40,842 nucleotides of DNA from Planctomycetota bacterium. Lineage in GTDB: Bacteria > Planctomycetota > B15-G4 > JADJEK01. A model generated the notes under the pieces. The model was given only the letters and a program-made list of their open reading frames with translations. It did not search any database and was not told where the DNA came from. Made by a program: the position numbers and the translations under genes. Location: positions 1-40,842 of the forward strand of contig JACQZJ010000150.1 in NCBI GenBank assembly GCA_016213895.1, in the 5' to 3' direction. How positions within the stretch are numbered: position 1 is the first letter of the stretch; the number at the start of each line of letters is the position of its first letter. Below are positions 343-14,569 of the stretch, piece after piece.

Positions 343-519
343 CTACACCGTCGCGTCGTTCGATTCAGGCGGCGGCGCGGAGGCCTGGCATTCGGCGCAG
401 TCGCCGGCATTCCGGGCGTGGCACTTCTCGCAGCCCGTGGAGCGGCAGTTCATGCGCTGGGCGATGGCGAAGACCACGAAGAGGAGCGCGACGCCGAGGA
501 TTGCCATGATCTCGTTCAT
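343..519 (-). CDS. Small Cys-rich membrane protein ending the Rnf operon
   Basis: A 58-aa protein whose ATG overlaps the rnfA stop as ATGA, so it is almost certainly translated by coupling as the last gene of the operon. Residues 4-21 form one hydrophobic helix. Basic residues (R22, R26, K32, R36) follow the helix, so by the positive-inside rule the C-terminus should be cytoplasmic. The tail has five cysteines: C25, C30, C33, C41, C44 (C-x4-C-x2-C-x7-C-x2-C). The layout (one N-terminal helix plus a short Cys cluster) is that of NqrM, which is needed to mature the Na+-NQR iron centre, and of FeoB-associated Cys-rich proteins; RnfA/RnfE are homologous to NqrD/NqrE. I infer a role in inserting the RnfA-RnfE iron-sulfur cluster, without sequence-level proof. 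C30-x2-C33-H34 is also a heme c motif but probably lies on the wrong side of the membrane. The stop is TAG at 343-345. Confidence 0.75.
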   Translation of the reverse strand: MNEIMAILGVALLFVVFAIAQRMNCRSTGCEKCHARNAGDCAECQASAPPPESNDATV

Positions 520-1094
520 GACTGGCTCCCGAGTCCGGCGAAGCCCCCGAAGGCCAGTGAGAGCGAAGCGGCGATGAGGAGAGTGAGCGCCGTGCCCTTG
601 CACACGGCGGGTACGGTCGAGAGCTCGGTCTTCTCGCGGATCGACGCCATGAGGACCAGGGCCAGCGTGAGCCCGAGGCCGGCGCCGAGGGCGAAGAAGA
701 GGCCCTGCAGCAGGCCGTACTCGCGGTTCGTTTGGAAGATGGCCAGGCCGAGGACGGCGCAGTTGGTGGTGATGAGCGGCAGGTAGATCCCGAGCTGGCG
801 GAAGAGGGTGGGGCTGAGCTTCTTGATCGCCATCTCGGTGATCTGCACCAGCGACGCGATCACGACGATGAATGAGATGAGGCGCAGGAAGGGCACTGCC
901 GCGAGGATGTACGTGTTGAGGAACCACGCGCAGAGCGACGTGAGCGTGAGCACGAAGATGTTGGCCACGCCCATGCGCAGGGCGGTCTCGATCCGGGAGG
1001 AGACCCCGAGGAAGGGGCAGATGCCGAGGAACATGGACAACGTGAAGTTGTTCACGACCATCGCGGAGATGAAGATCCAGATCAGGTTTCCCAT
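516..1094 (-). CDS. rnfA: Rnf complex subunit A (integral membrane)
   Basis: A 192-aa hydrophobic protein with about six membrane helices, the usual RnfA/NqrE length. It begins MGNLIWIFISAMVVNNF, the family N-terminus. RnfA and RnfE form an inverted pseudosymmetric pair that holds an iron-sulfur cluster within the membrane; the expected ligands are visible as C26 (LGICPFLGV) and C112 (TTNCAVLG). Its ATG shares one base with the rnfE stop (TAATG), and its own stop overlaps the next small gene as ATGA. The start was chosen by this coupling and by family length; the open frame extends upstream but reads as out-of-frame rnfE sequence. Confidence 0.95.
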   Translation of the reverse strand: MGNLIWIFISAMVVNNFTLSMFLGICPFLGVSSRIETALRMGVANIFVLTLTSLCAWFLNTYILAAVPFLRLISFIVVIASLVQITEMAIKKLSPTLFRQLGIYLPLITTNCAVLGLAIFQTNREYGLLQGLFFALGAGLGLTLALVLMASIREKTELSTVPAVCKGTALTLLIAASLSLAFGGFAGLGSQS

Positions 1095-1744
1095 TACGCG
1101 ACCCTCCTGGCTGCGGCGCCTGCGTCCGCGCCCGCGGCGCGCAGCGCCGCGCGCTGCTCCCGCCAACTCACGAAGAGCAGGAGGAACCCGAGCGTGAGGA
1201 AGCCGCCCGGCGGCAGCACGAAGATGACCCAGGGTTCGAACCCGGGTCCGAACAGGCTGAAGCCTAGGAACGTGCCGCTGCCCAGGACCTCACGCACCGA
1301 CCCCATGATGAGCAGCGTGACCATGAAGCCGATGCCGTTGCCGCAGGCGTCGAGGAGCGCCCGGCCCACCGGCCGCTTGAAGGCGAAGGCCTCGGCACGG
1401 CCGAGAATGATGCAGTTCACCACGATGAGCGCGATGAAGGCCCCGAGCGCCTTGTGGATCGTGGGCACCAGCGCTTCCAGGCACATGTCCGCCACGGTGA
1501 CGAAGGTCGCGATGATGAGCATGAAGGCGGAGATGCGCACCTCGTTGGGGATGACCTTCCTGCTCAGCGAGACGAGCACGCTCGAACAGCAAAGCACGGC
1601 GAAGGTCGCGATGCCCATGGCCAGGCTGTTGGCCACGGTGTTGGTGACCGCGAGCGTCGGGCAGAGCCCGAGCACCTGTATCAGGACCGGGTTCTCCTTC
1701 CAGATCCCCGCCAGGAGATCCTGACTCGGCGTGGTCTGCTTCAC
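1094..1744 (-). CDS. rnfE: Rnf complex subunit E (integral membrane)
   Basis: A 216-aa membrane protein of the RnfE/NqrD family with six predicted helices. Cluster-ligand cysteines matching those of RnfA are present: C28 (GLCPTLAVTN) and C111 (VVNCIILGRAEAF). It starts with GTG at 1744-1742, overlapping the rnfG stop as GTGA, and ends one base into rnfA. The C-terminus after the last helix is Ala/Arg-rich (ALRAAGADAGAAARR) and shows no conserved feature. It moves electrons across the membrane between cytoplasmic RnfC/RnfB and the flavins of RnfG/RnfD. Confidence 0.95.
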   Translation of the reverse strand: MKQTTPSQDLLAGIWKENPVLIQVLGLCPTLAVTNTVANSLAMGIATFAVLCCSSVLVSLSRKVIPNEVRISAFMLIIATFVTVADMCLEALVPTIHKALGAFIALIVVNCIILGRAEAFAFKRPVGRALLDACGNGIGFMVTLLIMGSVREVLGSGTFLGFSLFGPGFEPWVIFVLPPGGFLTLGFLLLFVSWREQRAALRAAGADAGAAARRVA

Positions 1745-2427
1745 GGGCCGGTCTCCACTCCGTAGGCCTCGAGCAGCGGTCTCATCTTCTCGAGCTTGTT
1801 GTTGATGATGCGGATCACGGTCTTGGACGAGATCGTGGCTCCCGTGATCATGTCGATCTCCTCGGCCTTGCCGCTGCCGTCGCCGGCCTTCACGCCGACG
1901 ATGGGCGCCGCCGCTCCCTTGAACTGCGAGATGAACGGCGCGCTCTTCTCGATCTTGTCGCCCAGCCCCGGCGTTTCCTTGCTCTCCAGCACCTTCATGC
2001 CCAGGAGCGTGCGGCCTTCTGCGTCGCAGCCGAAGATGAGGCGCACCGTGTCCTGGAAGCCGGGCTCTCCGGACACCATGGCGAAACCGACAGGGCGGGA
2101 GGCCGCGTCCAAGCCGAGGAAGACGCGCTCCAGGCCCTTGGCGTCGACTCCGGCCGGAGCCTCGGCGACGAGCTTGCCGCCGTGGACGAAGAGCGCGACG
2201 AAGCGCTGCGGAGCGTTGAGGACCTCCCGCACGGCGCGCTCGATGGCCGCCTCTTTGTTCTGCTGGATGGCGGGCAGAGTGGCCTGGAAGGCCAGGACGA
2301 GCAGGAGGCCGCAGACCAGCCCGCCCACCGCGAGAGTCAGGACGAGCCGCAGGGAGGAGACCTCGGGCGGCGCGGGCGCGGTCGGGACGCTCTGTTCAGC
2401 CGGTGGGGAGAGGGCGGCTTCCGTCAT
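1741..2427 (-). CDS. rnfG: Rnf complex subunit G (covalent FMN protein)
   Basis: A 228-aa protein of the RnfG/NqrC family. It has a Pro/Ala-rich N-terminal tail of about 24 residues, one membrane helix (about 27-49), and a periplasmic FMN-binding domain. The flavinylation motif D-x2-T-G-A-T is seen as DMITGATISS, making T198 the expected site of phosphoester-linked FMN. The motif ETPGLGDKIE typical of the family is also present. Start ATG 2427-2425 overlaps the rnfD stop as ATGA; the stop overlaps rnfE as GTGA. Flavinylation needs an ApbE transferase, which is not in this window. Confidence 0.95.
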   Translation of the reverse strand: MTEAALSPPAEQSVPTAPAPPEVSSLRLVLTLAVGGLVCGLLLVLAFQATLPAIQQNKEAAIERAVREVLNAPQRFVALFVHGGKLVAEAPAGVDAKGLERVFLGLDAASRPVGFAMVSGEPGFQDTVRLIFGCDAEGRTLLGMKVLESKETPGLGDKIEKSAPFISQFKGAAAPIVGVKAGDGSGKAEEIDMITGATISSKTVIRIINNKLEKMRPLLEAYGVETGP

Positions 2428-3464
2428 GACAGCACCTTCACCCGGCTCCTGCCGAAGACCCTGGGCTGGGTGGCGCGCTCGATGAACGGCACCACGCCGT
2501 TCATCAGCAGGATGGCGTACATCACTCCCTCGGGCAGGCCGCCCCACATGCGAATCGCCACCACCAGGACGCCGATGCCGCCGCCGAAGAGCCAAGAGCC
2601 CAGGCTGGTGGTGGGGGAGGTCACCATGTCCGTGGCCATGTACACCGCGCCGAGCATGAGCCCGCCGGAGAAGAGCATGAAGAGCGGGTCCGGATAGCGC
2701 GCGGCGTTCGTCAGATGCAGGATGCCGGAGAACACGGCGACCGTGAGGAAGATGCTCGCCGGGATGCGCCAGTTGAGGAAGCCGCGGTACGCGAGATAGG
2801 CGCCGCACAGCAGGATCACCAGGGCGCAGGTTTCGCCGAGCGATCCGCTCGTGGATCCGAGCATCAGGTCAGAGAAACCCGAGCCGGTCTTCTCGAACTT
2901 CATCAGGCCGAGCGGCGTGGCGCCCGTGGCGACGTCCGGCAGCGTAATGCCTTGAGCGGCCAGGGCCGCGCGCTCCGCGGCCTCGCTCATGAACGGCCAG
3001 GCGAGGTTGTCGCCGCGCAGGTTCCACCAGTTGCCGCCGGTCACGGGCCAGGTCGTGAGGGTGACCGGAAAGGCCGCCTGCAGGAAGGCGCGGCCGAGCA
3101 GCGCCGGGTTGAAGGGGTTCTGGCCCAGCCCGCCGAAGATCAGCTTGCCGATGGCGATGCCGAAGGCGCCGCCGATGAAAGCCATCCAGATGGGCAGGCC
3201 GGGCGGCAGGGTCAGGCCGAGCAGCAGGCCGGTGATCACCGCCGAGCCGTCGCCGAGCGAGCCCTTGTTCCCGAGCAGGCGCTCGGGCAGCAGGGCGCCG
3301 GCGGTGGCGGCGAGGATCACCAGGAGCGCGCTCGGGCCGAAGTACCAGAGGGCAGCCGCCACGACCGGCAGCAGGCTCAAGACCACGTTCCACATGATCT
3401 GCCGCGTGCTGTCCGGCCCCTTCAAGTGGGGCGAAGCAGTCACCAGCAGCTTCTCATCGCTCAT
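2424..3464 (-). CDS. rnfD: Rnf complex subunit D (integral membrane, covalent FMN)
   Basis: A 346-aa polytopic membrane protein of the RnfD/NqrB family with about nine hydrophobic segments. Recognisable family strings are GLGQNPFNPALLGRAF (residues 112-127) and the flavinylation motif VATGATPLG, with T183 the predicted FMN-bearing residue. It belongs to the ion-translocating membrane core. ATG at 3464-3462 overlaps the rnfC stop (ATGA). The open frame continues further upstream, but that extension is a shadow of rnfC and was not used. Confidence 0.95.
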   Translation of the reverse strand: MSDEKLLVTASPHLKGPDSTRQIMWNVVLSLLPVVAAALWYFGPSALLVILAATAGALLPERLLGNKGSLGDGSAVITGLLLGLTLPPGLPIWMAFIGGAFGIAIGKLIFGGLGQNPFNPALLGRAFLQAAFPVTLTTWPVTGGNWWNLRGDNLAWPFMSEAAERAALAAQGITLPDVATGATPLGLMKFEKTGSGFSDLMLGSTSGSLGETCALVILLCGAYLAYRGFLNWRIPASIFLTVAVFSGILHLTNAARYPDPLFMLFSGGLMLGAVYMATDMVTSPTTSLGSWLFGGGIGVLVVAIRMWGGLPEGVMYAILLMNGVVPFIERATQPRVFGRSRVKVLS

Positions 3465-4792
3465 GAGCGCGCCGCCTTGATCTTCGTGAGCGCCGCTTTG
3501 GAGACCTGGAACATCTGGCTCAGCGGGATGTTCGAGGGACAGACGTATGAGCAGCAGCCGCAGAGCATGCACGTGGCGAGGTCGTGCTCCTCCATCTGCT
3601 CGTGGCGGCCGGCGCGCGCCAGGGCGCCGAGGAGCTGCGGATTGAGGAACACCGGGCACGCGTCCAGGCAGTGGCCGCAGCGGATGCACGGCAGGATCTC
3701 GACGGACCTGCTGTGCCGGTCGTCGAGCACCACGACGCCGGTCGTGCCCTTGCACACCGGCACGTTCAGGTCGCTCACCGCCGCGCCCATCATCGGCCCG
3801 CCGAGCACGATCTTGCGCGCGCCGGGCGTGAGCCCGCCGCAGGCGTCGAGCAGGTCGCGGAGCTTGGTGCCCACCGGCACGAGCAGGTTGCCCGGTCGCC
3901 GCACGCCGTCTCCGGTGACGGTGACGATGCGCTCGAGCAGAGGCAGCCCGGTCTCGAAGGCCTCGGCGATCGTGGCCACCGAGCCGACGTTCTGCACCAC
4001 CGCGCCGACGTGCACCGGCAGCTTGCCCGGCGGCACCTCCCGATCGATCAGCGCCTTGATGAGCATCTTCTCCGCGCCCTGCGGATAGCGCACGCGCAGC
4101 GGCATGACCAGGACGTCGAGATCGTCCGGAAGCGTGCGCTGGATCGCGCGGATGGCCTCCGGCTTGTTCTTCTCGATGCCCACCAGGCAGTGCCGCGCGC
4201 CCAGGCACTTCATCATGATGCGGATGCCGAGCTGGACCCTCTCCGGGTACTCGACCATGGTGCGGTCGTCGGTGGTGAGGTACGGCTCGCACTCGCAGCC
4301 GTTGACCAGCAGGTAGTCGACGTGCTCGCCCTCGGGAGGCACGAGCTTGACGTGCGTGGGGAAGGCCGCCCCACCCAGGCCGACGACGCCCGCCTCGCGC
4401 ACCGCCGCGACGAGCTGCTCCTTCGAGAGCCCGCGCCAGTCAGGGATGACCCGGGCGCGCGTCTCGTGCAGCGAGTAGCGCTCGACGGCGATGCGGATGG
4501 CGGGCGCCAGCGACCCGTCCGGATGGGGCCAGAGCCCGATGGCGGAGATGATGCCGCTGGCCGATGCGTGCAGGGGCACGGAGACCCAGCCGTCCGCCTC
4601 CGCCACCTTGTCGCCCCGCATGACGCGGTCGCCCACGCGCACGATGGGGCGGGCCGGCTTGCCGGTGTGCTGGCGCAGCGGCAGGACCAGTTCGTCCGGG
4701 TAGGGCAGCCGCCGGAGCTGTCTGCCCGCCGTGAGCTCCTTCAGCTCGGGCGGGTGGACGCCGTGCCGGAAGTTGAGCGGAATCGTAGGCAT
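3461..4792 (-). CDS. rnfC: Rnf complex subunit C (NADH/ferredoxin-side Fe-S flavoprotein)
   Basis: A 443-aa peripheral subunit. Order of parts: N-terminal barrel-sandwich domain with FRHGVHPPELKELT, the nucleotide/FMN-binding domain with GVVGLGGAAFPTHVKL (about 135-150), an SLBB region (VTVTGDGVRRPGNLLVPVG), and two [4Fe-4S] motifs, C369/C372/C375 plus C379 and C408/C411/C414 plus C418. It lacks the long Ala/Lys-rich C-terminal extension of some gammaproteobacterial RnfC proteins. RnfC is the NAD(H) site of the complex. It starts with ATG 4 nt after the stop of the giant pyruvate:ferredoxin oxidoreductase gene, so the two are co-translated. Confidence 0.95.
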   Translation of the reverse strand: MPTIPLNFRHGVHPPELKELTAGRQLRRLPYPDELVLPLRQHTGKPARPIVRVGDRVMRGDKVAEADGWVSVPLHASASGIISAIGLWPHPDGSLAPAIRIAVERYSLHETRARVIPDWRGLSKEQLVAAVREAGVVGLGGAAFPTHVKLVPPEGEHVDYLLVNGCECEPYLTTDDRTMVEYPERVQLGIRIMMKCLGARHCLVGIEKNKPEAIRAIQRTLPDDLDVLVMPLRVRYPQGAEKMLIKALIDREVPPGKLPVHVGAVVQNVGSVATIAEAFETGLPLLERIVTVTGDGVRRPGNLLVPVGTKLRDLLDACGGLTPGARKIVLGGPMMGAAVSDLNVPVCKGTTGVVVLDDRHSRSVEILPCIRCGHCLDACPVFLNPQLLGALARAGRHEQMEEHDLATCMLCGCCSYVCPSNIPLSQMFQVSKAALTKIKAARS

Positions 4793-4796
4793 CGGC

Positions 4797-7700
4797 TCAC
4801 TTGTTGAACGGTTCGGCGCGCTTGATCAGCTCGTCGAGGTTCTTCTCCTTGGGGTTCTGCGGCGAGCCCGGGTGGATGATCCCGACCGGGCAGCGCTCGG
4901 CGGCCATCACCAGGTGCTTGAAGGGGCCTCCCTTCGCGTCCTTGACGTAGGCCTGCTTCTTGTCGTTGTAGGCGAAGATCTTCTTGTTCAGGTTGGTGCA
5001 CTCGTTGCAGGTGGTGCAGCGCGCCGACTCGATGTACGGCTCCATCACCAGCCGCTCTTCGGCCGCGGGCGCCGCGGCCGAGGCAGGCTGCGCGGCCGCG
5101 GCTGGCGCCGGCTCGGCCACGGCAATCGCCGCGGTGGACGGAGCGGCCGCCGCGGCCGCCCTGCCCTGCGCTCCCACCGGGATCGGATCGACGCCCATGA
5201 TCTCCATGGCCTGGGCCGTGCTCAGGAGCTCGGCCACGGTGCGCGAACCGTCCGCGCGCAGCAGGCCCTCCGCCATGCGGCGCGCCACCAGGCTCGGGTA
5301 AGAGGCCTTGAGGTCGGTCAGCTTGCCCTCGTACTCGCGGCGCAGCGCCTCCATCTTCGCGTCGAACTCCTGGCCGAGCGCGTCGGACACGCGGTCCTTG
5401 ACCGTGTCGGTGACGAGCACGCCGGCGAGCTGGCGCAGCTGCGACCAGTAGAGCAGCCGGTCCTCGGCCAGGCGCACGATGTCGGCGGATGCGGCGAAGC
5501 GCGCCAGCTTGCGCTGCGCGTCGATGGTGTAGATGAACGGCGTCTTGCCCTCCCGGTCGCCAGCCGCCAGGTCGAGGTACTCGTGGAACGGCACGAGCTC
5601 CTCGCCGGCGTCGGCCTTGACCGGGGTGAAGTGCTTCTTGAAGCGCGCCTCGGTGCACGCCCAGTCGGCGACCGTGAGCGGCAGGGTGAGCGACTGCCCC
5701 TTGCCGTCGTCGCCGGCGAACTTCAGCTCGTAGGTCGGCCAGCGCTCCTCGAGGTCGGGGTTGCCGTCCAGGTTCACACAGTCGGCGATGGACGCGCCCT
5801 TCTCCGGGTCATAGACGAAGAACGGGTAGGCGCGGCTCTCGAGCGAGAGGCGCGCCGCGCGGAACGCGGAGTCGTCGCCGATGCCGTGTTCCGGCGCGCA
5901 CGGGCAGTGCAGCAGGAAGAGCGCCGGACGGCGCTCCTGCAGCCCTCTGAGCACGCCGCCCAGCAAGTGGGAGGGCGACGCCTGCGAGGACTGCAGCACG
6001 TAGGTGTTGCGGTGCGCGAACGCGACCAGCGCCAGCTCCTTGCGCGTCTCCTCCTTGCCGCGCTGGCCCTTGCCGAAGGCCGCCATGTCGGAGATCTGGC
6101 TGGTGAAGCCGCTGGTGCACGCCTGCCCGCCGGTGTTCGAGTAGACCTGCGTGTCGAGCACGACCACGCGGATCGGCTTGCCCGAGGCCATCATGCGCGA
6201 CAGGTTCTGGAAGCCGATGTCGAACATGGCGCCGTCGCCGCCGACCGCGATCAGCGGCGGGCACAGGTCGAACTCCTCGGCGGAGAAGTCGAGCCAGGTG
6301 AGCTTCTGGAAGGCCGGCTCGTGCGCGGCGGCGTCGTACTCGCCGGCCAGCTCCAGCTCGGCGCGGCGCACGGCGATGAAGCCGTCGCCCATCTTGCGCA
6401 TGTGCCCCTCGAAGATGCCGATGGCGACCGACGGGGAGTCCTGGAAGAGCTGGTTGACCCAGGGGACCGGGTAGGGGTTGAAGGGGTAGGTGCTGGCCCA
6501 GACCGAGGAGCAGCCGGTCGAGTTGGCGATGCCGCAGAGCGCGCGGCCCTTGCCGCTCGGGCCCTTGGTGTAGCGCCAGAGCAGGTCCTTGAGGTCGCGC
6601 AGCACGCGGTTGATGCGCTCGATGGCCGCCGCCTTGTCGCCGGCAACCTTCACGTCGACCTTGCCCGCGCCGCCGCTGACCTTCTCCAGGTCGGCGCCGG
6701 CAGCGAGCAGCGTGCGCGCCTTCTCGTCGAGCTTGGCGATGAGGTCCTGCAGGCGCTGGATGTGCTTGTCGACGCGCGGCTGCATCAGGGCGTTGACCGC
6801 GCCCAGCACGAGATGCAGCACCGTCTTCTCTGCGCAGCCCATGCACGCGCCGTCGCCGCCGACCATGCCGCGGTAGGCGTTCTTCTTGAGGAGCATGGAG
6901 GGCAGGATGCCGATGCCCTGCTCGTAGCTGGAGATGTTGATGTAGCGGTCGTCGGTGTCCGGGAGCTGCTTCCAGAGCCGCCAGTTGCGCCGCAGGGTCT
7001 CGACCGTTTCCGGCTCCTGCTTGATCGTCCTCAGGGCGCCGTCCGGGCAGACGTCCACGCACAGCATGCAGCCCTTGCACGTGTCCGGATTGACCGTGAT
7101 CGAGAGCAGCGCGCCGCTGCCCTTCTCCTTGCCCTCGGGCACGTCGAAGAAGGGCGCCGTCTTGGCCAGCGGGAAGTCGGTGAGCGCGGTGCGCACCGGC
7201 AGAAACTGCCGGTCGAGGACCTCGCGCTGCTCCGGCGACGGAGCCGCCTTCTCGAGCACGTTCTTGTAGGCGAGCGACAGGACCTCGGTGAACTTGGCGA
7301 ACGGGCCGCCGCTGACGATGCGCTGCGCTTCGCGGGCGAGCGGCTTGACGAGCTGGCGCAGGCGGTCGAATGGCGTGCCGCCCTCGACGGAGCGGATCGC
7401 CGCCTCGAGGAGCTGGTCGATGGGGGTGACCAGGCCGGGGATGGCGCTGTCCGGGCACTGGCTCCAGCACTGGCCGCAGCCGGTGCACCTCTCGGCGATG
7501 AACTGCGGCACCTCGAAGCGCACGTCCGTCATGTCGCGCGTGACCGTGGTCACCGCGGGAATGGCGGAGATGGCGACGAACGGATCGGCGAGCGGATCGG
7601 AGCCGCTCTTGTAGACGTTGGTGATCTGCTCCCAGAAGCGGCCCTGGTCGCCGATGCCCGGGCGCACGTCCTTGACGTTCAGCTCGTCCGGGATGACGCG

Positions 7701-9836
7701 CAGGGCGCCGCCCTCGGCGCCGGTCAGCTCGCGCGCCGACGCGTCGAACTCCTGCAGGCCCTCGAAGCCGCGCTCGATCACGCGCATGTTGTCCTCGACG
7801 ACGCTCCCTCCCAGGCGTCCGAACTTCTTGGCGAGCTGGGCGCGGATGCCGGCCATGAGGCGCTCGCGGTCGAGCTCGCCGCTCTCCATGAACGGCGACA
7901 CCTTGAAGAACGCGCCCATGAAGGCCGTGCCCTGCATGCGGTAGCGCAGCTCGGCCTCGGAAGCCTCCTGCATGGCGATCTTGAAGGCGTCGATGTAGTA
8001 GACGCGCAGCTTGTCCTTCTTGATCCTGTCCTGGGCGGAGCGCGGCAGCATCTGCCACAGCTCGTCGGCGCTCTTGTCCCACTGGATGACGAACACGCCG
8101 CCCTGGCTGAGGCCGGCGAGCGGGTTGGAGTGGCGGAACACGTTCGGGTCCGGGGAGAGCACCACGCTGACCTGCCTCAGCTCGCAGTTGAGCCGGATGG
8201 GCTCCTTGGCGAGCGTGGCGTAGAACGTGGTCGGCTGGCCCTTCTTCTCCGAGCCGTACTTGGGGTTGGCCTTGATGTACAGGCCGAGCAGCTCGGACGC
8301 GGTCATCGCCACGTTCTTGCCCATGGTGATGGCGCCCCATCCGCCCACCGAGTGGATGCGGATCGAGACCGACCCCTTGGGCATGAGGTTGGCCGCGTCG
8401 CTGGCCTTGAGGGCGAGCTGCGCCAGGTGCGGGTAGCCCTCGAGCAGCTGCTGCTGGTGGATCTCGAGCTTCGGCAGCTTGGTCCCGGGGCGGACGAAGT
8501 CGATGCTCAGGTAGAACTGCCGCTGGCGGCCGCCGTTCTCCAGCATGTTCTCGACCGCGGCGATCAGGTCGGCGGGCTGCAGGTCGCGGCTGCCCATGCC
8601 GAAGCAGCCGGAGAAGAACTCGGGGACCTCCTCGGAGCGGAGCGCCGCGACGCCGCGGTGCGGCGGCGCTCCCTTGGCGCGGCCGTTCTCCAGGCCCTTG
8701 CTCATGGCGGCACGGATCTCGCGGATGAGCGGCAGGTCGACCGCGAGCGGCTGGTCGACGCGCTCCAGGACCGTGGCGGCCTTCTTGCCCTTGAGGATCT
8801 TGGTGATGAGGTCGGACGGGAAGGGGCGGAACATGGTGACGTTGACCACGCCAACCTTCAGTCCCTTCTTCTCGCGCAGGTAGTCGCAAACCGCCTCGGC
8901 GTTGGCTACCACCGAGCCCTGGCCGATGATGACGTACTCGGCGTCGTCGGTCCTGTAGCCGGTGACGCGGCTGTAGCGCCGCCCGCTCAGCGCCGCGTAC
9001 TCCGCCATCGCCTGGTCAGCCAACTCCTGGATGTGGTCGAAGTAGAAGGGGCGCTGCGCGGCGACGCCCTGGGCGTAGCTGTCCTGGTTCTGCACCACGC
9101 CGACCATCGCCGGGTAGTCGAAGTCGAACATCTCCGGGATGCGGCGGCGCTTGGCGCCGAAGACCATGCGCTGCGCCGGCGTGGGCGAGTCGATCAGGTC
9201 GGAGGGGTCGCCGAGGTACTCCTTGACCAGTTCCGGCTCCGGCAGGTCCATGGTCTCGATGACGTGGCTGGTGAGGAAGCCGTCCTGGGCGGAGATGCCC
9301 GGGTTCAACGACAGCTCGGCGATGCGGTGCGCGATGAGCGTCAGGTCGGCGGCCTCCTGCACGCTCTTGCTGAACATCTGGAAGAAGCCGGTGTCGTCGA
9401 TCGCGTGGTAGTCGTCGTGCCCGGCGTGCACGTTGAGCGAGTGCTTGGTCATCGCGCGGCAGGCGACGTTGAGCACGTAGGTGAGGCGCTTGCCCACGGC
9501 CGCGTAGAGCGACTCGTGCATGTAGGCGATGCCCTGGCCGCTGGAGAAGTTGGTCGAGCGCAGGCCGGTCATGCTCATGCCGGCGGTCACGGCGGCGGCG
9601 GCGTGCTCGCCCTCGGGCTCGAAGAAGATCAGCCGGCGGCCGTTGACGTTCGTCTTGCCCGCGGCCACCGCCAGGGCCCAGCCCTCGCCCATCTGCGTCG
9701 AGGGCGTGATCGGATAGGCGCCCGCGGCCTCGCTGGCGGCGGTCTCCATGGCGACGACGGCCTCGCTGCCGTCCATCGACATGCGCACCCCCGGGTACTT
9801 GGCGGAAGACGAGCTCGTGCTCTTTGCCTTGGACAT
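4797..9836 (-). CDS. nifJ: Giant NifJ-type pyruvate:ferredoxin oxidoreductase with C-terminal ferredoxin domain
   Basis: A 1679-aa single-chain 2-oxoacid:ferredoxin oxidoreductase, about 500 residues longer than typical NifJ (near 1170-1200). It makes acetyl-CoA, CO2 and reduced ferredoxin from pyruvate, or the reverse. Seen in order: YPITPST (about 41); a two-cluster ferredoxin domain, CTGCGQC (about 784) and CKGCMLC (about 920), separated by an unusually long spacer of about 125 residues; CMGC near 1000, followed by an extra helical insert of about 80 residues before STGCSSVW; and a TPP motif GGDGAMFDIGF...DTQVYSNTGGQ (about 1196-1235). An Ala/Pro-rich linker near 1560-1595 leads to an extra Fe-S domain with CTTCNEC (about 1606) and a later CP (about 1648). 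Start ATG has AAGGAG upstream, inside the end of rnfB. Substrate (pyruvate) is inferred from family and not proven. Confidence 0.9.
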   Translation of the reverse strand: MSKAKSTSSSSAKYPGVRMSMDGSEAVVAMETAASEAAGAYPITPSTQMGEGWALAVAAGKTNVNGRRLIFFEPEGEHAAAAVTAGMSMTGLRSTNFSSGQGIAYMHESLYAAVGKRLTYVLNVACRAMTKHSLNVHAGHDDYHAIDDTGFFQMFSKSVQEAADLTLIAHRIAELSLNPGISAQDGFLTSHVIETMDLPEPELVKEYLGDPSDLIDSPTPAQRMVFGAKRRRIPEMFDFDYPAMVGVVQNQDSYAQGVAAQRPFYFDHIQELADQAMAEYAALSGRRYSRVTGYRTDDAEYVIIGQGSVVANAEAVCDYLREKKGLKVGVVNVTMFRPFPSDLITKILKGKKAATVLERVDQPLAVDLPLIREIRAAMSKGLENGRAKGAPPHRGVAALRSEEVPEFFSGCFGMGSRDLQPADLIAAVENMLENGGRQRQFYLSIDFVRPGTKLPKLEIHQQQLLEGYPHLAQLALKASDAANLMPKGSVSIRIHSVGGWGAITMGKNVAMTASELLGLYIKANPKYGSEKKGQPTTFYATLAKEPIRLNCELRQVSVVLSPDPNVFRHSNPLAGLSQGGVFVIQWDKSADELWQMLPRSAQDRIKKDKLRVYYIDAFKIAMQEASEAELRYRMQGTAFMGAFFKVSPFMESGELDRERLMAGIRAQLAKKFGRLGGSVVEDNMRVIERGFEGLQEFDASARELTGAEGGALRVIPDELNVKDVRPGIGDQGRFWEQITNVYKSGSDPLADPFVAISAIPAVTTVTRDMTDVRFEVPQFIAERCTGCGQCWSQCPDSAIPGLVTPIDQLLEAAIRSVEGGTPFDRLRQLVKPLAREAQRIVSGGPFAKFTEVLSLAYKNVLEKAAPSPEQREVLDRQFLPVRTALTDFPLAKTAPFFDVPEGKEKGSGALLSITVNPDTCKGCMLCVDVCPDGALRTIKQEPETVETLRRNWRLWKQLPDTDDRYINISSYEQGIGILPSMLLKKNAYRGMVGGDGACMGCAEKTVLHLVLGAVNALMQPRVDKHIQRLQDLIAKLDEKARTLLAAGADLEKVSGGAGKVDVKVAGDKAAAIERINRVLRDLKDLLWRYTKGPSGKGRALCGIANSTGCSSVWASTYPFNPYPVPWVNQLFQDSPSVAIGIFEGHMRKMGDGFIAVRRAELELAGEYDAAAHEPAFQKLTWLDFSAEEFDLCPPLIAVGGDGAMFDIGFQNLSRMMASGKPIRVVVLDTQVYSNTGGQACTSGFTSQISDMAAFGKGQRGKEETRKELALVAFAHRNTYVLQSSQASPSHLLGGVLRGLQERRPALFLLHCPCAPEHGIGDDSAFRAARLSLESRAYPFFVYDPEKGASIADCVNLDGNPDLEERWPTYELKFAGDDGKGQSLTLPLTVADWACTEARFKKHFTPVKADAGEELVPFHEYLDLAAGDREGKTPFIYTIDAQRKLARFAASADIVRLAEDRLLYWSQLRQLAGVLVTDTVKDRVSDALGQEFDAKMEALRREYEGKLTDLKASYPSLVARRMAEGLLRADGSRTVAELLSTAQAMEIMGVDPIPVGAQGRAAAAAAPSTAAIAVAEPAPAAAAQPASAAAPAAEERLVMEPYIESARCTTCNECTNLNKKIFAYNDKKQAYVKDAKGGPFKHLVMAAERCPVGIIHPGSPQNPKEKNLDELIKRAEPFNK

Positions 9837-9839
9837 GCG

Positions 9840-10691
9840 TCAACTCCTTGCCGGCGCCAGCCGGCTGAGGGCCGGGAACTGCGCGCCCTCGACCCAGACG
9901 ATCGCCTTGGTCGGGCAGCGCGCGATGGCTTCCCTGCCCGCCAGGTCGTTCTTCTCGTAATCAACCCTTGCCAGACCGTCCACGATTCTGATCACGCCCG
10001 GTTTGGCGTCAGCGGCGCAGCGGCCGCAGCCGGTGCAGGCGACGGCGCAGAGCTGCTCCGCCACGTCGCCTTCCAGCAGGCTGCGGCACTGCACGATCAA
10101 CTTGTGCTCGATCGGCATGACAACGAAGAGGTTCTTGGGACAGGCGGCGACGCAGTCGCCGCACGCGGTGCAGCGCGCGGGATCGACCAGCGGCAGGCCC
10201 GTCTCGCTCATGTGGATCGCGCCGAAGCCGCAGGCCGCTTCGCAGTCGGCGAGCCCGATGCATCCCCACTTGCACGCCTTGCCGCCGCCCGCCACGGCCG
10301 CGGCCGCGCCGCACGTCGGCAAGCCGCGGTACTCCGCCTGCTGCAGCGCCACGTCGCTGCCGCCGGCGCACAGGAGGCGCGCGACCCTCTTCTGCGCGGC
10401 TCCCGCGGCCACGCCGAGGTAGGCGGCGACCTCCTCGATTCCGTCGCCGCTCAGCACGTTGCAGCCCGCGGGCTGCACGGCGCCGGCGACGAGCTTCTCG
10501 GCGAAGGCGCGGCACCCCGGGTAGCCGCAGGCGCCGCAGTTGGCGCCGGGCAGGAGAGCGACCGTGCCGTCGATGCGCGGGTCCTCCCACACCCTGAGCT
10601 TGCGGAAGGCCAGGGCGATCAGCGTGCCGAAGACGAGGCCGACCCCGCCCAGGATAAGAGCAGAGACCACGATCGTGGTGCTGTCGTCCAT
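9840..10691 (-). CDS. rnfB: Rnf complex subunit B (ferredoxin-type Fe-S protein)
   Basis: A 283-aa protein. One N-terminal membrane helix (about 6-30) is followed by the RnfB-specific cluster motif C52-x2-C55-x4-C60 with C77 (GANCGACGYPGC), then a multi-cluster ferredoxin part with C140/C144/C150/C154, C174/C177/C180/C184, C215/C219/C222/C225 and C259-P. RnfB is the entry point for electrons from soluble ferredoxin. Here it is not next to rnfA or rnfC, as in common rnf operons, but directly upstream of the giant pyruvate oxidoreductase (3-nt gap). ATG at 10691 has GAGAGGA upstream and lies 17 nt after the preceding gene's stop. The open frame extends upstream but without family similarity. 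Confidence 0.93.
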   Translation of the reverse strand: MDDSTTIVVSALILGGVGLVFGTLIALAFRKLRVWEDPRIDGTVALLPGANCGACGYPGCRAFAEKLVAGAVQPAGCNVLSGDGIEEVAAYLGVAAGAAQKRVARLLCAGGSDVALQQAEYRGLPTCGAAAAVAGGGKACKWGCIGLADCEAACGFGAIHMSETGLPLVDPARCTACGDCVAACPKNLFVVMPIEHKLIVQCRSLLEGDVAEQLCAVACTGCGRCAADAKPGVIRIVDGLARVDYEKNDLAGREAIARCPTKAIVWVEGAQFPALSRLAPARS

Positions 10692-10708
10692 CTCGGTCGC
10701 CGGTCCTC

Positions 10709-11707
10709 TCAGAGACCCTGCAGGTCGGTCCGCTTCAGCAGCCAGGCGGCCAGGCGGTCCACCTGAGCGCTGGCCGGGCGGTCCGGCGCGGATGGTCCCG
10801 CGGCCGCAGCCGGGGGCGCGGCGGCGAGTTCCTGCAGAAGGCGCAAGCACTCGCGCTGCCAGGCGGCGCTCATGCCCTCGAGACGGATCACGGCGTCCTC
10901 CTGCGGCAGGCGCGCGATCTTGAGGCGGTCCCAGGAGCGCGCTTCTGCCCGCGGAACATGCGTGAACAGGGCAGCGGACTCTGGAACCAGTGCGGCGATT
11001 CCTGGGCCTTGATAGGCCGTGAAGCCCGCCAGTTCCACTGGCTCAGCGGCCTGCACCACGTACACGCCGGGGCTCGCCAGCCGCGCCAGCGGCGCCGGCG
11101 GGCACTTGCCGCTGACGACGAGGACAATCTTCTGCCGGCCGTCGAGGAACTCTGCCAGAGCTTCCGCGCGCACATCCTGGCCGGCGACCTCCACCACGAG
11201 CGGCGGAGCGATCTGCCGTTCGCTGGAGCTCCACAGGAAGTAGGGGTACTCGTTGACGAAGCGCTGGTGCAGGGAAGCCTCATAGCGCCGCGCCCGGGAC
11301 AGTCCCACGACGCGCGCGGCGCCGAAGGCGCGCCCGATGCGGGCGAGCGCGCCGGCCACGGCGTCCCTCAGGACTCCGCCCGTCGCGACCTTCACCCGCA
11401 CGACGCTCTCCTTCTGGTCGGCCAGGTCGGAGAGGAGGTCGAAGATCGTCTCCAGGCGCGCCACGGTCGCGGCGTCCACCTCCTCCTCGACGGCGAGCAG
11501 GGTGGCGAACCGCTCCGCGTCGATGCGGCCGGCGGCAAAGCTGCCCAGCTCGGCCCGGCGCTGCTCGCCGCTGTCGGACTGGGCCGAGCGCCAGGTCGAG
11601 AGGATGCCGCGCACGTCCTCCACCGCGCTCGCCAAAGCCGAGCGGAAGGCGCTGATCGGACCGGCCAGCTCCTTCAAGGTCCGGGAAACCCTGTCGTCAG
11701 ACTGCAT
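10709..11707 (-). CDS. Unrecognised 332-aa protein between korB and rnfB
   Basis: I do not recognise this family. The gene overlaps the end of korB by 11 nt and precedes rnfB by 17 nt, so it belongs to the operon. The first 125 residues are mostly helical and rich in charged residues (one long run, about 60-105, is acidic). The middle (about 165-270) looks alpha/beta, with strands such as PPLVVEVAG, KIVLVVSG and PGVYVVQAAE. A low-complexity Ala/Pro stretch (AAAPPAAAAGPSAPD) precedes a short C-terminal helix ending LLKRTDLQGL. There is no signal peptide, membrane helix or Cys cluster; the one cysteine pair (C202 region and near 290) is isolated. Position suggests an accessory or assembly factor for the oxoacid oxidoreductases or Rnf, which is inference from context only. 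Confidence 0.8.
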   Translation of the reverse strand: MQSDDRVSRTLKELAGPISAFRSALASAVEDVRGILSTWRSAQSDSGEQRRAELGSFAAGRIDAERFATLLAVEEEVDAATVARLETIFDLLSDLADQKESVVRVKVATGGVLRDAVAGALARIGRAFGAARVVGLSRARRYEASLHQRFVNEYPYFLWSSSERQIAPPLVVEVAGQDVRAEALAEFLDGRQKIVLVVSGKCPPAPLARLASPGVYVVQAAEPVELAGFTAYQGPGIAALVPESAALFTHVPRAEARSWDRLKIARLPQEDAVIRLEGMSAAWQRECLRLLQELAAAPPAAAAGPSAPDRPASAQVDRLAAWLLKRTDLQGL

Positions 11708-12656
11708 AGCGATCCAACTCCGCGTTGAGGATCTCGATCTTCTCCTCCGCCGTGTACTTGGGCAGCGCGCGCGTCTCGTTGTAGCGCGGCCGCGACTCGT
11801 CGCGGAAGAAGAGCCCGAGCCGGAACTTCCCGTTGCCGCCCTCGGCGAGGCGCCGCGCCTCGTGCAGGTCGGAGGGGTCGTGGCTGATGTGGTTCTTGTA
11901 GAGCCCCTCCGCCTCCGGCTCGCAGATCCCGGCGGAGTGGGTGAGCAGCTCGACGTTGTCCGGGTGGCGCACGGCGTCCTGGTAGATGCCGGCAGTGAAG
12001 TGCGGGCAGCGCTGCAGGACGCGCACGAAGGAGAAGCCCTTGTGGTGGAACGCGGCCTTGAGCGTCTGGAAGAGGTGGGCCGGCGTCCAGTCGGAGGTCT
12101 GGGCCACGAACGAGCAGTTGGTGATGCCGAGCGTCGCGCTCAGCGGGTTGAGGGCCGGCAGGTAGCTGCCCTGCTGCTGCGTGTTGCTCTTGTGGCCCTG
12201 CGGCGTCGTGGGCGAGGTCTGGTTCTTGGTCAGCCCGTAGATGTTGTTGTCGAGCAGCATGGCGACCATGTCCACGTTGTAGCGCACGGCGTGCAGCCAG
12301 TGCCCGAGGCCGATGGAGCAGCAGTCGCCGTCGCCCATGATGGCGAAGACGTTCAGGTCGGGCCGCGTCATCTTGATGCCGGTGGCCACCGGCAGGGCGC
12401 GGCCGTGCAGGCCGTGGAAGCCGTAGGTCTTCAGGTAGTGGGGGAAGCGGCTCGAACAGCCGATGCCCGAGCAAAAGACGGTCTTCTCGCGCTTGAGCTG
12501 CTCGGACTCGAGCAGGCGCTGCATCGCGCCGAGCGCCGAGTGGTCGCCGCAGCCCGGGCACCAGCGCGGCACCGCGGACGAGTAGTCCTCGATCGTCAGG
12601 TGGCGCTCGTCGCCGCAGACGTCGCCGTCCAGCAAGGAGAACTGGGAACCGCTCAT
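11697..12656 (-). CDS. korB: 2-oxoacid:ferredoxin oxidoreductase beta subunit
   Basis: A 319-aa TPP-binding subunit. Motifs: CPGCGDHS with C33 and C36, GIGCSS with C67, and LQRCPHF with C217, together the four ligands of the single [4Fe-4S] cluster known in this two-subunit family. The TPP motif is GDGDCCSIG (109-116) through DNNIYGLTKNQ. The start ATG overlaps the korA stop (ATGA). With KorA it oxidises a 2-oxoacid (2-oxoglutarate or a broad range) with CoA, reducing ferredoxin. The last 11 nt overlap the next gene. The kor symbol is given for family; substrate cannot be read with certainty. Confidence 0.9.
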   Translation of the reverse strand: MSGSQFSLLDGDVCGDERHLTIEDYSSAVPRWCPGCGDHSALGAMQRLLESEQLKREKTVFCSGIGCSSRFPHYLKTYGFHGLHGRALPVATGIKMTRPDLNVFAIMGDGDCCSIGLGHWLHAVRYNVDMVAMLLDNNIYGLTKNQTSPTTPQGHKSNTQQQGSYLPALNPLSATLGITNCSFVAQTSDWTPAHLFQTLKAAFHHKGFSFVRVLQRCPHFTAGIYQDAVRHPDNVELLTHSAGICEPEAEGLYKNHISHDPSDLHEARRLAEGGNGKFRLGLFFRDESRPRYNETRALPKYTAEEKIEILNAELDRYAV

Positions 12657-14569
12657 CGCTGGCCTCCTTTCGTGAACATGCGCTCGATGCCGCCGAAGAT
12701 GTGATCCGGCCGGAGCGGTTCGCCGAAGCAGCGCGACCAGCAGTCCACGTCCACCAGGGTGTGGGCGCGCAGCAGCCAGCAGAGCTGGCTCAAGCGCCGG
12801 TTCTCCTTGGTGACGAACGGGTCGTTCAGCTCGTCGCTGTGGTTGATCTCCACGGTCATGACCTTTTTGAAGCGGCTGAAGATCTCCTTCAGGCCGGGCT
12901 GCATGGGCGCGAGGAAGGTGAGATGCGTCGAGGAGACTTTCAGGCCCTTGGCGCGCGCCCGGTCGACCGCCTCCTCGATGGCGCCCTTGGTGGAGCCCCA
13001 CCCCACGACCAGGAGGTCGCCCGAGCGGTCGCCTCTCACCTCGGGCGGCTTGAGCGTCTCGCTCAGCACCGCCATCTTGCGGCTGCGCATCTTCAGGCCC
13101 AGGGCGTTGGTCGCGGCCACGTAGCTCACGCGGCTCGCCTCGTCGTGCGAGAGGCCGGTCGCCACGAACATGCCCTCGGGCTGGCCGGGAATGAAGCGCC
13201 GGGACAGGCCGGAGCGCGCATCCCATTCGTAGGGACGCGTGTCCTTCGGGACCGGTCCTTGATCGGGCTGGCGCGCCTGCCAGCGCGGATCGAGCTTCGG
13301 GCGGGGGAAGGGCTGGACGCCCGTGGCGAGGTTGGCGTCCGTGAGCACCATCACCACGCAGCGGAACGCCTCGGCGATCCTGCGCGCCGTGATCATGCTG
13401 TGGAAGCATTCCTCGATCGTGGCCGGGGCGATGATGACCTTGGGGGCGTCCCCGGGCTGGCCGAAGAGCGCGGCCAGGAGGTCGGCCTGCTCGACCTTGG
13501 TCGGCAGGCCGGTCGACGGGCCGCCGCGCTGAACGTCGACCACGACCAGCGGCGTCTCGGTCATGGTGGCGAGGCCGATGAACTCGGTCTTGAGCGCGAG
13601 GCCCGGTCCGGAGGTGACGGTGAACGCCACCTTGCCCGCGAAGGACGCGCCGATGGCGCAGCCCACGGCGGCGATCTCGTCCTCGGCCTGGTGGACCACG
13701 CCGCCGGCCTTGTGGAAGGCCTCGGCCAGGTAGTGCGAGACCGAGGTGGCCGGGGTGATGGGGTACATGGCCATGTAGTCCATGCCCGCGGCCATGGCGC
13801 CCATGCCGACGGCCTCGTTGCCGTTCATGACCACCATGGGCCGGTCGCTCTCCGTGGGCGGCACCTGGATGCGGAAGGGGAGGTGCTCCTCGGCCCAGCG
13901 CACGCCCAGCTCGACCAGCTGGATGTTGCGCTCGCGGACCTCGTCCGACTTGGAGCGGAACTGGTGCACGATCTGGGCCTTCACCTTCGCCATGTCGCGC
14001 GTGTAGACCGCGCACAGCAGGCCGAGGGCGAACATGTTCTTGCCCTTGCGCGCGTCGTCCACGACCGTCAGGCAGATCTCCTCCATTGGCACCCGGATGA
14101 TGCGGTAGCGGGCGCGCGACAGCTCCTCCAGCCCCGCCTGCCACTCGGCGCGCACCTTCTCGTCCTCGTGCTTCTCCCACATGTCCTCGAGGAAGATGAC
14201 GGCGTCCTCGGCCAGCGCCTCGAGCCGGTGCCGCGCCAGGAGCACCTGCTCGTTGAAGGCGACCACCACGTTCGCCCGGTCTCCCCAGTTGGTCACCGTC
14301 TGCGTGCCGATGCGGATGCGGTTGCCGGAGGCTCCCGCGGCGTTGCGCGCCGGCGGCTGGATCTCGGCTGGGATGATCTCGACCGTCCACACGCCGTTGC
14401 CCATCTTCGCGGACACCGAGCCGAAGATCTGCCCGCACTTCTGGGCGCCTTCCCCAGAGTCGGAGACCACCTCGACGGTGTGCTCCGAGCAGTGCAGGAC
14501 TTCCGGTTCCATGCCGGAGGCGGTCGGAGCGGACTGAGACTCGGAAGGTGTGACGGGAGGAGTACTCAT
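12653..14569 (-). CDS. korA: 2-oxoacid:ferredoxin oxidoreductase, fused gamma-alpha subunit
   Basis: A 638-aa subunit and the first gene of the operon. Residues about 35-235 are the gamma (NifJ domain III-like) part, followed by the alpha part with the hallmark YPITP at 269-273, the substrate-pocket region, and a transketolase C-terminal domain ending near LTFLAPMQPGLKEIF. This gamma-alpha fusion with a separate beta is the layout of Sulfolobus-type 2-oxoacid and mycobacterial 2-oxoglutarate enzymes. There is no clear Shine-Dalgarno before the ATG at 14569, unlike most genes here. An alternative Met at codon 20 is possible because the first 19 residues are Ser/Pro/Thr-rich and not conserved in kind. 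Confidence 0.88.
   Translation of the reverse strand: MSTPPVTPSESQSAPTASGMEPEVLHCSEHTVEVVSDSGEGAQKCGQIFGSVSAKMGNGVWTVEIIPAEIQPPARNAAGASGNRIRIGTQTVTNWGDRANVVVAFNEQVLLARHRLEALAEDAVIFLEDMWEKHEDEKVRAEWQAGLEELSRARYRIIRVPMEEICLTVVDDARKGKNMFALGLLCAVYTRDMAKVKAQIVHQFRSKSDEVRERNIQLVELGVRWAEEHLPFRIQVPPTESDRPMVVMNGNEAVGMGAMAAGMDYMAMYPITPATSVSHYLAEAFHKAGGVVHQAEDEIAAVGCAIGASFAGKVAFTVTSGPGLALKTEFIGLATMTETPLVVVDVQRGGPSTGLPTKVEQADLLAALFGQPGDAPKVIIAPATIEECFHSMITARRIAEAFRCVVMVLTDANLATGVQPFPRPKLDPRWQARQPDQGPVPKDTRPYEWDARSGLSRRFIPGQPEGMFVATGLSHDEASRVSYVAATNALGLKMRSRKMAVLSETLKPPEVRGDRSGDLLVVGWGSTKGAIEEAVDRARAKGLKVSSTHLTFLAPMQPGLKEIFSRFKKVMTVEINHSDELNDPFVTKENRRLSQLCWLLRAHTLVDVDCWSRCFGEPLRPDHIFGGIERMFTKGGQR

Follow-up and report, generated by a model that had tools for sequence, protein, structure and literature searches.

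The rnf operon of the window and its small last gene

An rnf operon of a Planctomycetota bacterium ends in a very short gene for a Cys-rich membrane protein, which raises the question of whether a small protein encoded directly behind rnfA helps to build the [2Fe-2S] centre of RnfA and RnfE. The operon lies in the window, which is the whole stretch of 40,842 nucleotides that we analysed. All its genes are on the minus strand, in the order 2-oxoacid:ferredoxin oxidoreductase alpha/beta (14569-11697), a gene for a 332-aa protein next to the oxidoreductase beta gene (10709-11707; no Pfam match at E 0.001), rnfB (9840..10850; transmembrane segment, PF04060 FeS domain and ferredoxin domain), a fused pyruvate-type 2-oxoacid:ferredoxin oxidoreductase of 1679 aa (POR; 4797..9836), rnfC (3461..4792), rnfD (2424..3464), rnfG (1741..2427), rnfE (1094..1744), rnfA (516..1094) and the small gene (343..519). 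Here rnfB is placed upstream of POR and not after rnfA. Positions 4797-14569 encode two ferredoxin-reducing 2-oxoacid oxidoreductases together with rnfB and rnfCDGEA, one a separate alpha/beta pair and the other the fused POR, which has an extra C-terminal ferredoxin domain.

The small gene, identified from its sequence, its relatives and a profile search, reads ATG AAC GAG from position 519 to a stop at 343 (minus strand) and encodes 58 aa: MNEIMAILGVALLFVVFAIAQRMNCRSTGCEKCHARNAGDCAECQASAPPPESNDATV. Its start overlaps the rnfA stop in an ATGA (516..519, minus), so that the gene is the final link in a chain of start/stop overlaps running through rnfC-rnfD-rnfG-rnfE-rnfA. AlphaFold and hydropathy place the transmembrane helix in the N-terminal part (residues 1-20 at 460..519, minus). 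The five Cys (25, 30, 33, 41 and 44) follow in the spacing C-x4-C-x2-C-x7-C-x2-C (388..447, minus) and are predicted to be cytoplasmic. The frame, its single helix, its Cys pattern and its overlap with rnfA had all been described in an earlier note on this DNA and are confirmed from the sequence. Automatic annotation could easily overlook such a frame, and the small ORF 3' of rnfA now has an explanation.

AlphaFold2 returned a single confident helix over residues 2-27, most of which has a pLDDT of about 95; the Cys tail is predicted with low confidence and is unstructured. When 45 proteins of the family were considered together, the part preceding the helix held 12 Lys and Arg in total, against 115 in the 12 residues that follow the helix. 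This bias indicates an N-out/C-in orientation, and the Cys should therefore face the cytoplasm.

The same note had named C26 and C112 of RnfA and C28 and C111 of RnfE as the ligands of the iron centre. These residues are invariant in our alignments, in 99 out of 99 rows of RnfA/NqrE and in 96 out of 96 rows of RnfE/NqrD. Another gene relevant to this locus is apbE, the flavin-attaching maturation gene of Rnf and NQR. The contig stops 342 bases beyond the small gene, and no apbE begins within these bases; the source genome has three apbE genes, all on other contigs.

A family of small proteins encoded behind rnfA

A search of related genomes returned a 45% identical homologue in a genome of the same family. 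We then read the DNA 3' of rnfA in 30 loci of Planctomycetota. All 15 loci of the window type, namely the window itself and loci with RnfA 66-80% identical, have a frame of 47-63 aa with one helix and a Cys cluster, usually with apbE next in line. Two further, looser cases were present (L060 and L061), and less similar rnfA genes were followed by rnfB or other genes. A scan of a collection of 84,980 species genomes with the RnfA alignment added 80 loci; since all loci were picked by RnfA similarity, the frequencies of carriers given here hold for the sampled loci. The small gene, of 47-78 aa, was found behind rnfA in records named as Gemmatimonadetes, Rokubacteria, Acidobacteria, Calditrichaeota, Spirochaetia, Kiritimatiellae, Planctomycetaceae, Flavobacteriia, Saprospiraceae and Beta- and Gammaproteobacteria, frequently with the ATGA overlap. 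The earlier note had considered that the gene might be missing after rnfA in all relatives, or that its Cys might not be conserved. Neither is the case, as the gene occupies this site across many phyla and a Cys cluster is retained in relatives.

Two forms can be distinguished. Group A, to which the window protein belongs, has a short linker and usually an adjoining apbE on the 3' side. Group B has a longer juxtamembrane stretch and a tail such as CSNCGCTTVCERK, and in many of its loci the genes for an FNR-like NAD-binding protein and for RnfB come next. The two groups are linked by an hhalign value of 96.7% and by cross-group HMM matches down to 7e-9, and they form one family. The last CxxC is the sole near-invariant element in an alignment of 40 sequences, and the number of Cys varies from 3 to 6, as does their spacing.

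The FNR-like gene lies after rnfA and the small gene, often before rnfB, in L134 (6876-7739) and L113 (6797-7657), and after rnfA alone in L125 (4707-5552). Its product is possibly an alternative electron outlet of POR-linked Rnf in group B operons. At L110 (2744-3466), a Gemmatimonadetes record, rnfA reads into the small gene with no stop between them, apparently owing to a frameshift or an ambiguous base near the end of rnfA.

The small gene is confined to one clade of Rnf

To place the carriers, we built a FastTree phylogeny of RnfA, RnfE and RnfD that also included 16 NQR operons. All carriers of the small gene fall within one clade (support 1.0), whose operons mostly have POR upstream of rnfC. 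Among the sampled loci, the small gene is present in 36 of the 40 assessable clade members and in none of 42 other Rnf. This count follows hand correction of three loci: L115 and L116, where the gene lies further downstream, and L121, which runs off the contig. A contig end truncates both L115 and L130, where the small gene was recognised from its helix part. Upon re-reading, L099, L107, L125 and L126 had no small gene at that rnfA. An automated test for a small ORF with one transmembrane segment and at least three Cys just after rnfA gave a similar picture, with 32 out of 39 clade loci, 0 out of 42 other Rnf, 1 out of 16 NQR and 16 out of 4739 random positions; the lone NQR case is apparently a spurious frame.

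The earlier note had suggested a profile search of other genomes. When 28 whole genomes were searched with the group B profile, all 17 matches, distributed over 16 genomes, were behind rnfA. Three of these were outside the known loci. Each was directly after rnfA in a further rnf operon, one in Ectothiorhodospira mobilis, one in a genome of Calditrichia and one in a genome of Flammeovirgaceae. Nine genomes with only canonical Rnf had no match to this profile. We conclude that the small proteins are solidly established as a new, clade-specific and previously unrecognised Rnf-associated family, and the gene is a simple signature of the POR-linked Rnf lineage.

Some genomes host both situations. 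E. mobilis has a canonical and a POR-linked rnf operon (L157 and L252), with the small gene only at the POR-linked one. The Calditrichia genome has two rnf operons (L125 and L251), and the small gene missing from L125 is present at the second.

The small gene is absent from canonical Rnf of the E. coli, Vibrio and Clostridium types. As canonical Rnf has neither this gene nor NqrM, a factor of this sort is not universally required, and the four clade members without the gene at rnfA likewise indicate that the centre can be built without the small protein. The small protein is therefore no general requirement of Rnf.

A possible role in assembly of the RnfA/RnfE iron centre

We put at roughly one in two the probability that the 58-aa protein handles iron as a membrane-anchored accessory and thereby helps to build the [2Fe-2S] centre of RnfA and RnfE, similar to NqrM in its role without being a member of that family. 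According to this proposal, the N-terminal helix would hold the flexible CxxC tail next to RnfA and RnfE, on the cytoplasmic side of the membrane. During assembly of the complex, this tail would capture either Fe(II) or a small Fe-S unit and hand it on to the four intramembrane Cys of RnfA and RnfE. That the protein binds iron, touches RnfA/RnfE and delivers iron to them is what we infer. The role would parallel that of NqrM in NQR, played by a protein that is independent of NqrM or only very distantly related to it.

Several features point in this direction. In a 2025 review of RNF and NQR, apbE and nqrM are described as coming after the structural genes in the nqr operon of Vibrio cholerae, and NQR as needing ApbE and, it seems, NqrM (PMC12174285; also PMC6209661). 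The position of the small gene in group A, usually between rnfA and apbE, and the lack of NqrM in the 15 Planctomycetota genomes with the small gene fit an NqrM-like role. For a cytoplasmic Cys tail anchored close to RnfA, with its gene adjoining apbE, the best explanation is a helper of assembly that handles iron. In addition, Cys that vary in number and spacing while CxxC is retained are what is expected of a metal carrier and not of a fixed electron-transfer cluster. The confinement of the gene to one Rnf clade, with a place behind rnfA in second operons as well, its purifying selection, the cytoplasmic orientation of the Cys, the iron-associated PF12669 as nearest Pfam model and the invariant ligands of RnfA and RnfE speak for the same reading. 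The main objection to it is that canonical Rnf manages without the gene, and the lack of an apbE in the bases left behind the small gene of the window also counts against it.

The main rival reading, which we consider unlikely but well short of negligible, is that the protein is a small permanent subunit of Rnf in the carrier clade. Its helix would pack on RnfA/RnfE, and a metal site in its Cys tail would dock RnfB, POR or ferredoxin, or relay electrons from them. Such a subunit is favoured by the fact that the small gene strictly accompanies the rnfCDGEA operons of one clade, most of them headed by POR, and is coupled to rnfA as tightly as the structural genes are to one another. However, a fixed electron-transfer cluster would agree poorly with Cys so variable in spacing and number, or with a tail that AlphaFold leaves disordered. 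Moreover, RnfB, complete with a helix and an FeS domain of its own, is still encoded in the window and in several other operons.

The iron-handling reading may be taken a step further. Our searches of the literature for RnfM or an rnf maturation factor returned nothing relevant, and we found no described factor for the intramembrane [2Fe-2S] of Rnf; only ApbE and, for NQR, NqrM are named as such factors in the passages of the 2025 review consulted here (PMC12174285). It is possible, although we hold this more tentatively than the general role, that the undescribed family is dedicated to maturation of the RnfA/RnfE [2Fe-2S], belongs to the POR-linked clade and evolved independently of NqrM. If so, two related pumps would have gained, independently of each other, helpers for iron loading that are built alike. 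With the gene and its Rnf clade now defined, and with carriers in culture, the question of how Rnf acquires its [2Fe-2S] can be put to a direct test. The cultured carriers are Thiothrix caldifontis, Flavivirga rizhaonensis, Seonamhaeicola aphaedonensis, Thiorhodococcus mannitoliphagus and Ectothiorhodospira mobilis.

Comparison with NqrM

NqrM and the small protein have much in common. Both are small, with one N-terminal helix and a cytoplasmic Cys tail, both are encoded downstream in the operon of homologous pumps, and NqrD/NqrE hold the same four-Cys iron centre; NqrM, however, is linked to nqr, whereas the small gene is linked to rnfA. The NqrM model PF04400 matched neither the window protein nor any of 42 aligned small proteins, and it had no match in 15 Planctomycetota genomes that carry the small gene. 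The NqrM proteins that we collected from Planctomycetota and Vibrio have a GSCGG motif, which contains the first Cys to follow the helix; this motif is absent from the small proteins, as is MAxGVI, another hallmark of NqrM.

In profile comparisons, groups A and B together gave an hhalign value of 93.1% against NqrM, compared with at most 76.3% in 60 column-shuffled controls, and group B gave 93.8%, above all 60 shuffles. The closeness to PF12669 and to the N-terminus of RnfB is about equal (see below). Judging from these profiles, the resemblance reflects a common design, a helix followed by CxxC, and is not specific to NqrM. The analogy drawn in the earlier note hence stands in part: the location after rnfA, the neighbouring apbE and the lack of PF04400 in the 15 carriers speak for it, but a specific kinship with NqrM is not supported.

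We therefore think it improbable that the small protein is a genuine homologue of NqrM (DUF539), highly diverged and handed down to both NQR and the carrier Rnf clade. The group B value over the shuffles and the equal size, topology and Cys tail would be in keeping with such an origin, but the RnfB N-terminus and PF12669 score at the same level, both motifs and any PF04400 match are missing, and NQR branches neither within nor beside the carrier clade. Two related proposals were rejected. One was membership in NqrM, given that the HMM has no match and the shuffle-controlled similarity is real but unspecific; the other was an origin of NQR, with an inherited NqrM, from the carrier clade, as the tree does not place NQR inside or next to that clade.

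The two genes may also occur in the same genome. T. caldifontis encodes both NqrM and the small protein, each adjoining its own pump. Two genomes with POR-linked Rnf also have an NQR operon (L185/L230 and L186/L231), with a divergent NqrM (GSCGGTGxDCACD) below the Pfam cut-off.

Comparison with PF12669 and RnfB

The nearest Pfam model is PF12669, the FeoB-associated Cys-rich membrane protein, which is also the only Pfam family matched by many of the small proteins. The matches are weak: they involve 12 out of 25 members of group A, with a best E of 4.9e-5 per protein and of 7.3e-4 in a whole genome, where the score of 22.4 bits falls short of the cut-off of 27, and none of the rnf-site small proteins listed reached the gathering score of 27 bits. 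The PF12669 motif Cx3-5Cx2-3Cx6-8C is commonly associated with iron binding, although the function of the family itself is not established (PMC8749426). The window protein fits this motif exactly, whereas its relatives do not. Groups A and B together scored 95.8% against PF12669 (at most 60.8% in 60 column-shuffled controls). Both kinds of protein are about 50 aa long and combine one helix with a Cys tail, but PF12669 genes adjoin feoB and the small gene adjoins rnfA. From these comparisons, the small family should not be filed under NqrM or PF12669. A profile search of the PDB with the family returned no match, and a search of NCBIfam gave nothing useful for the small protein.

The RnfB N-terminus, with a helix followed by a CxxC loop, scored 94.9% against groups A and B together (at most 56.6% in 60 column-shuffled controls), and rnfB occupies the same site directly after rnfA in many canonical operons. 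Along with one weak HMM match (E 0.0024) of the frame that L152 has at the rnfB position, this would suit a derived RnfB fragment, consisting of the N-terminal helix and the first Cys loop, left at the ancestral rnfB position. We judge this very improbable, as the Cys spacing differs from that of RnfB (C-x2-C-x4-C with a later fourth Cys) and a full rnfB, helix included, has another place in the window and in several operons. PF04060 has no match among the small proteins, and ferredoxin domains are absent from them too. A degenerate rnfB was ruled out, as the complete gene is present.

Although the small size and the low identity outside the Cys might suggest that GC-rich DNA has here produced a spurious frame, or that the product is an unrelated regulator, this is highly improbable for a gene that is conserved across many phyla and GC contents, is placed at a specific position and has dN/dS below 1 in the close pairs for which it could be computed. 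The spurious frame was discarded on the basis of these selection data and of the automated test against random positions. Close pairs gave dN/dS of 0.14/0.72, 0.19/0.78, 0.24/1.37 and 0.22/0.78, with ratios of roughly 0.2 to 0.3, a few higher ones and a single pair at 0.9. In these close pairs the small gene is under purifying selection, and the Cys are retained in most of them.
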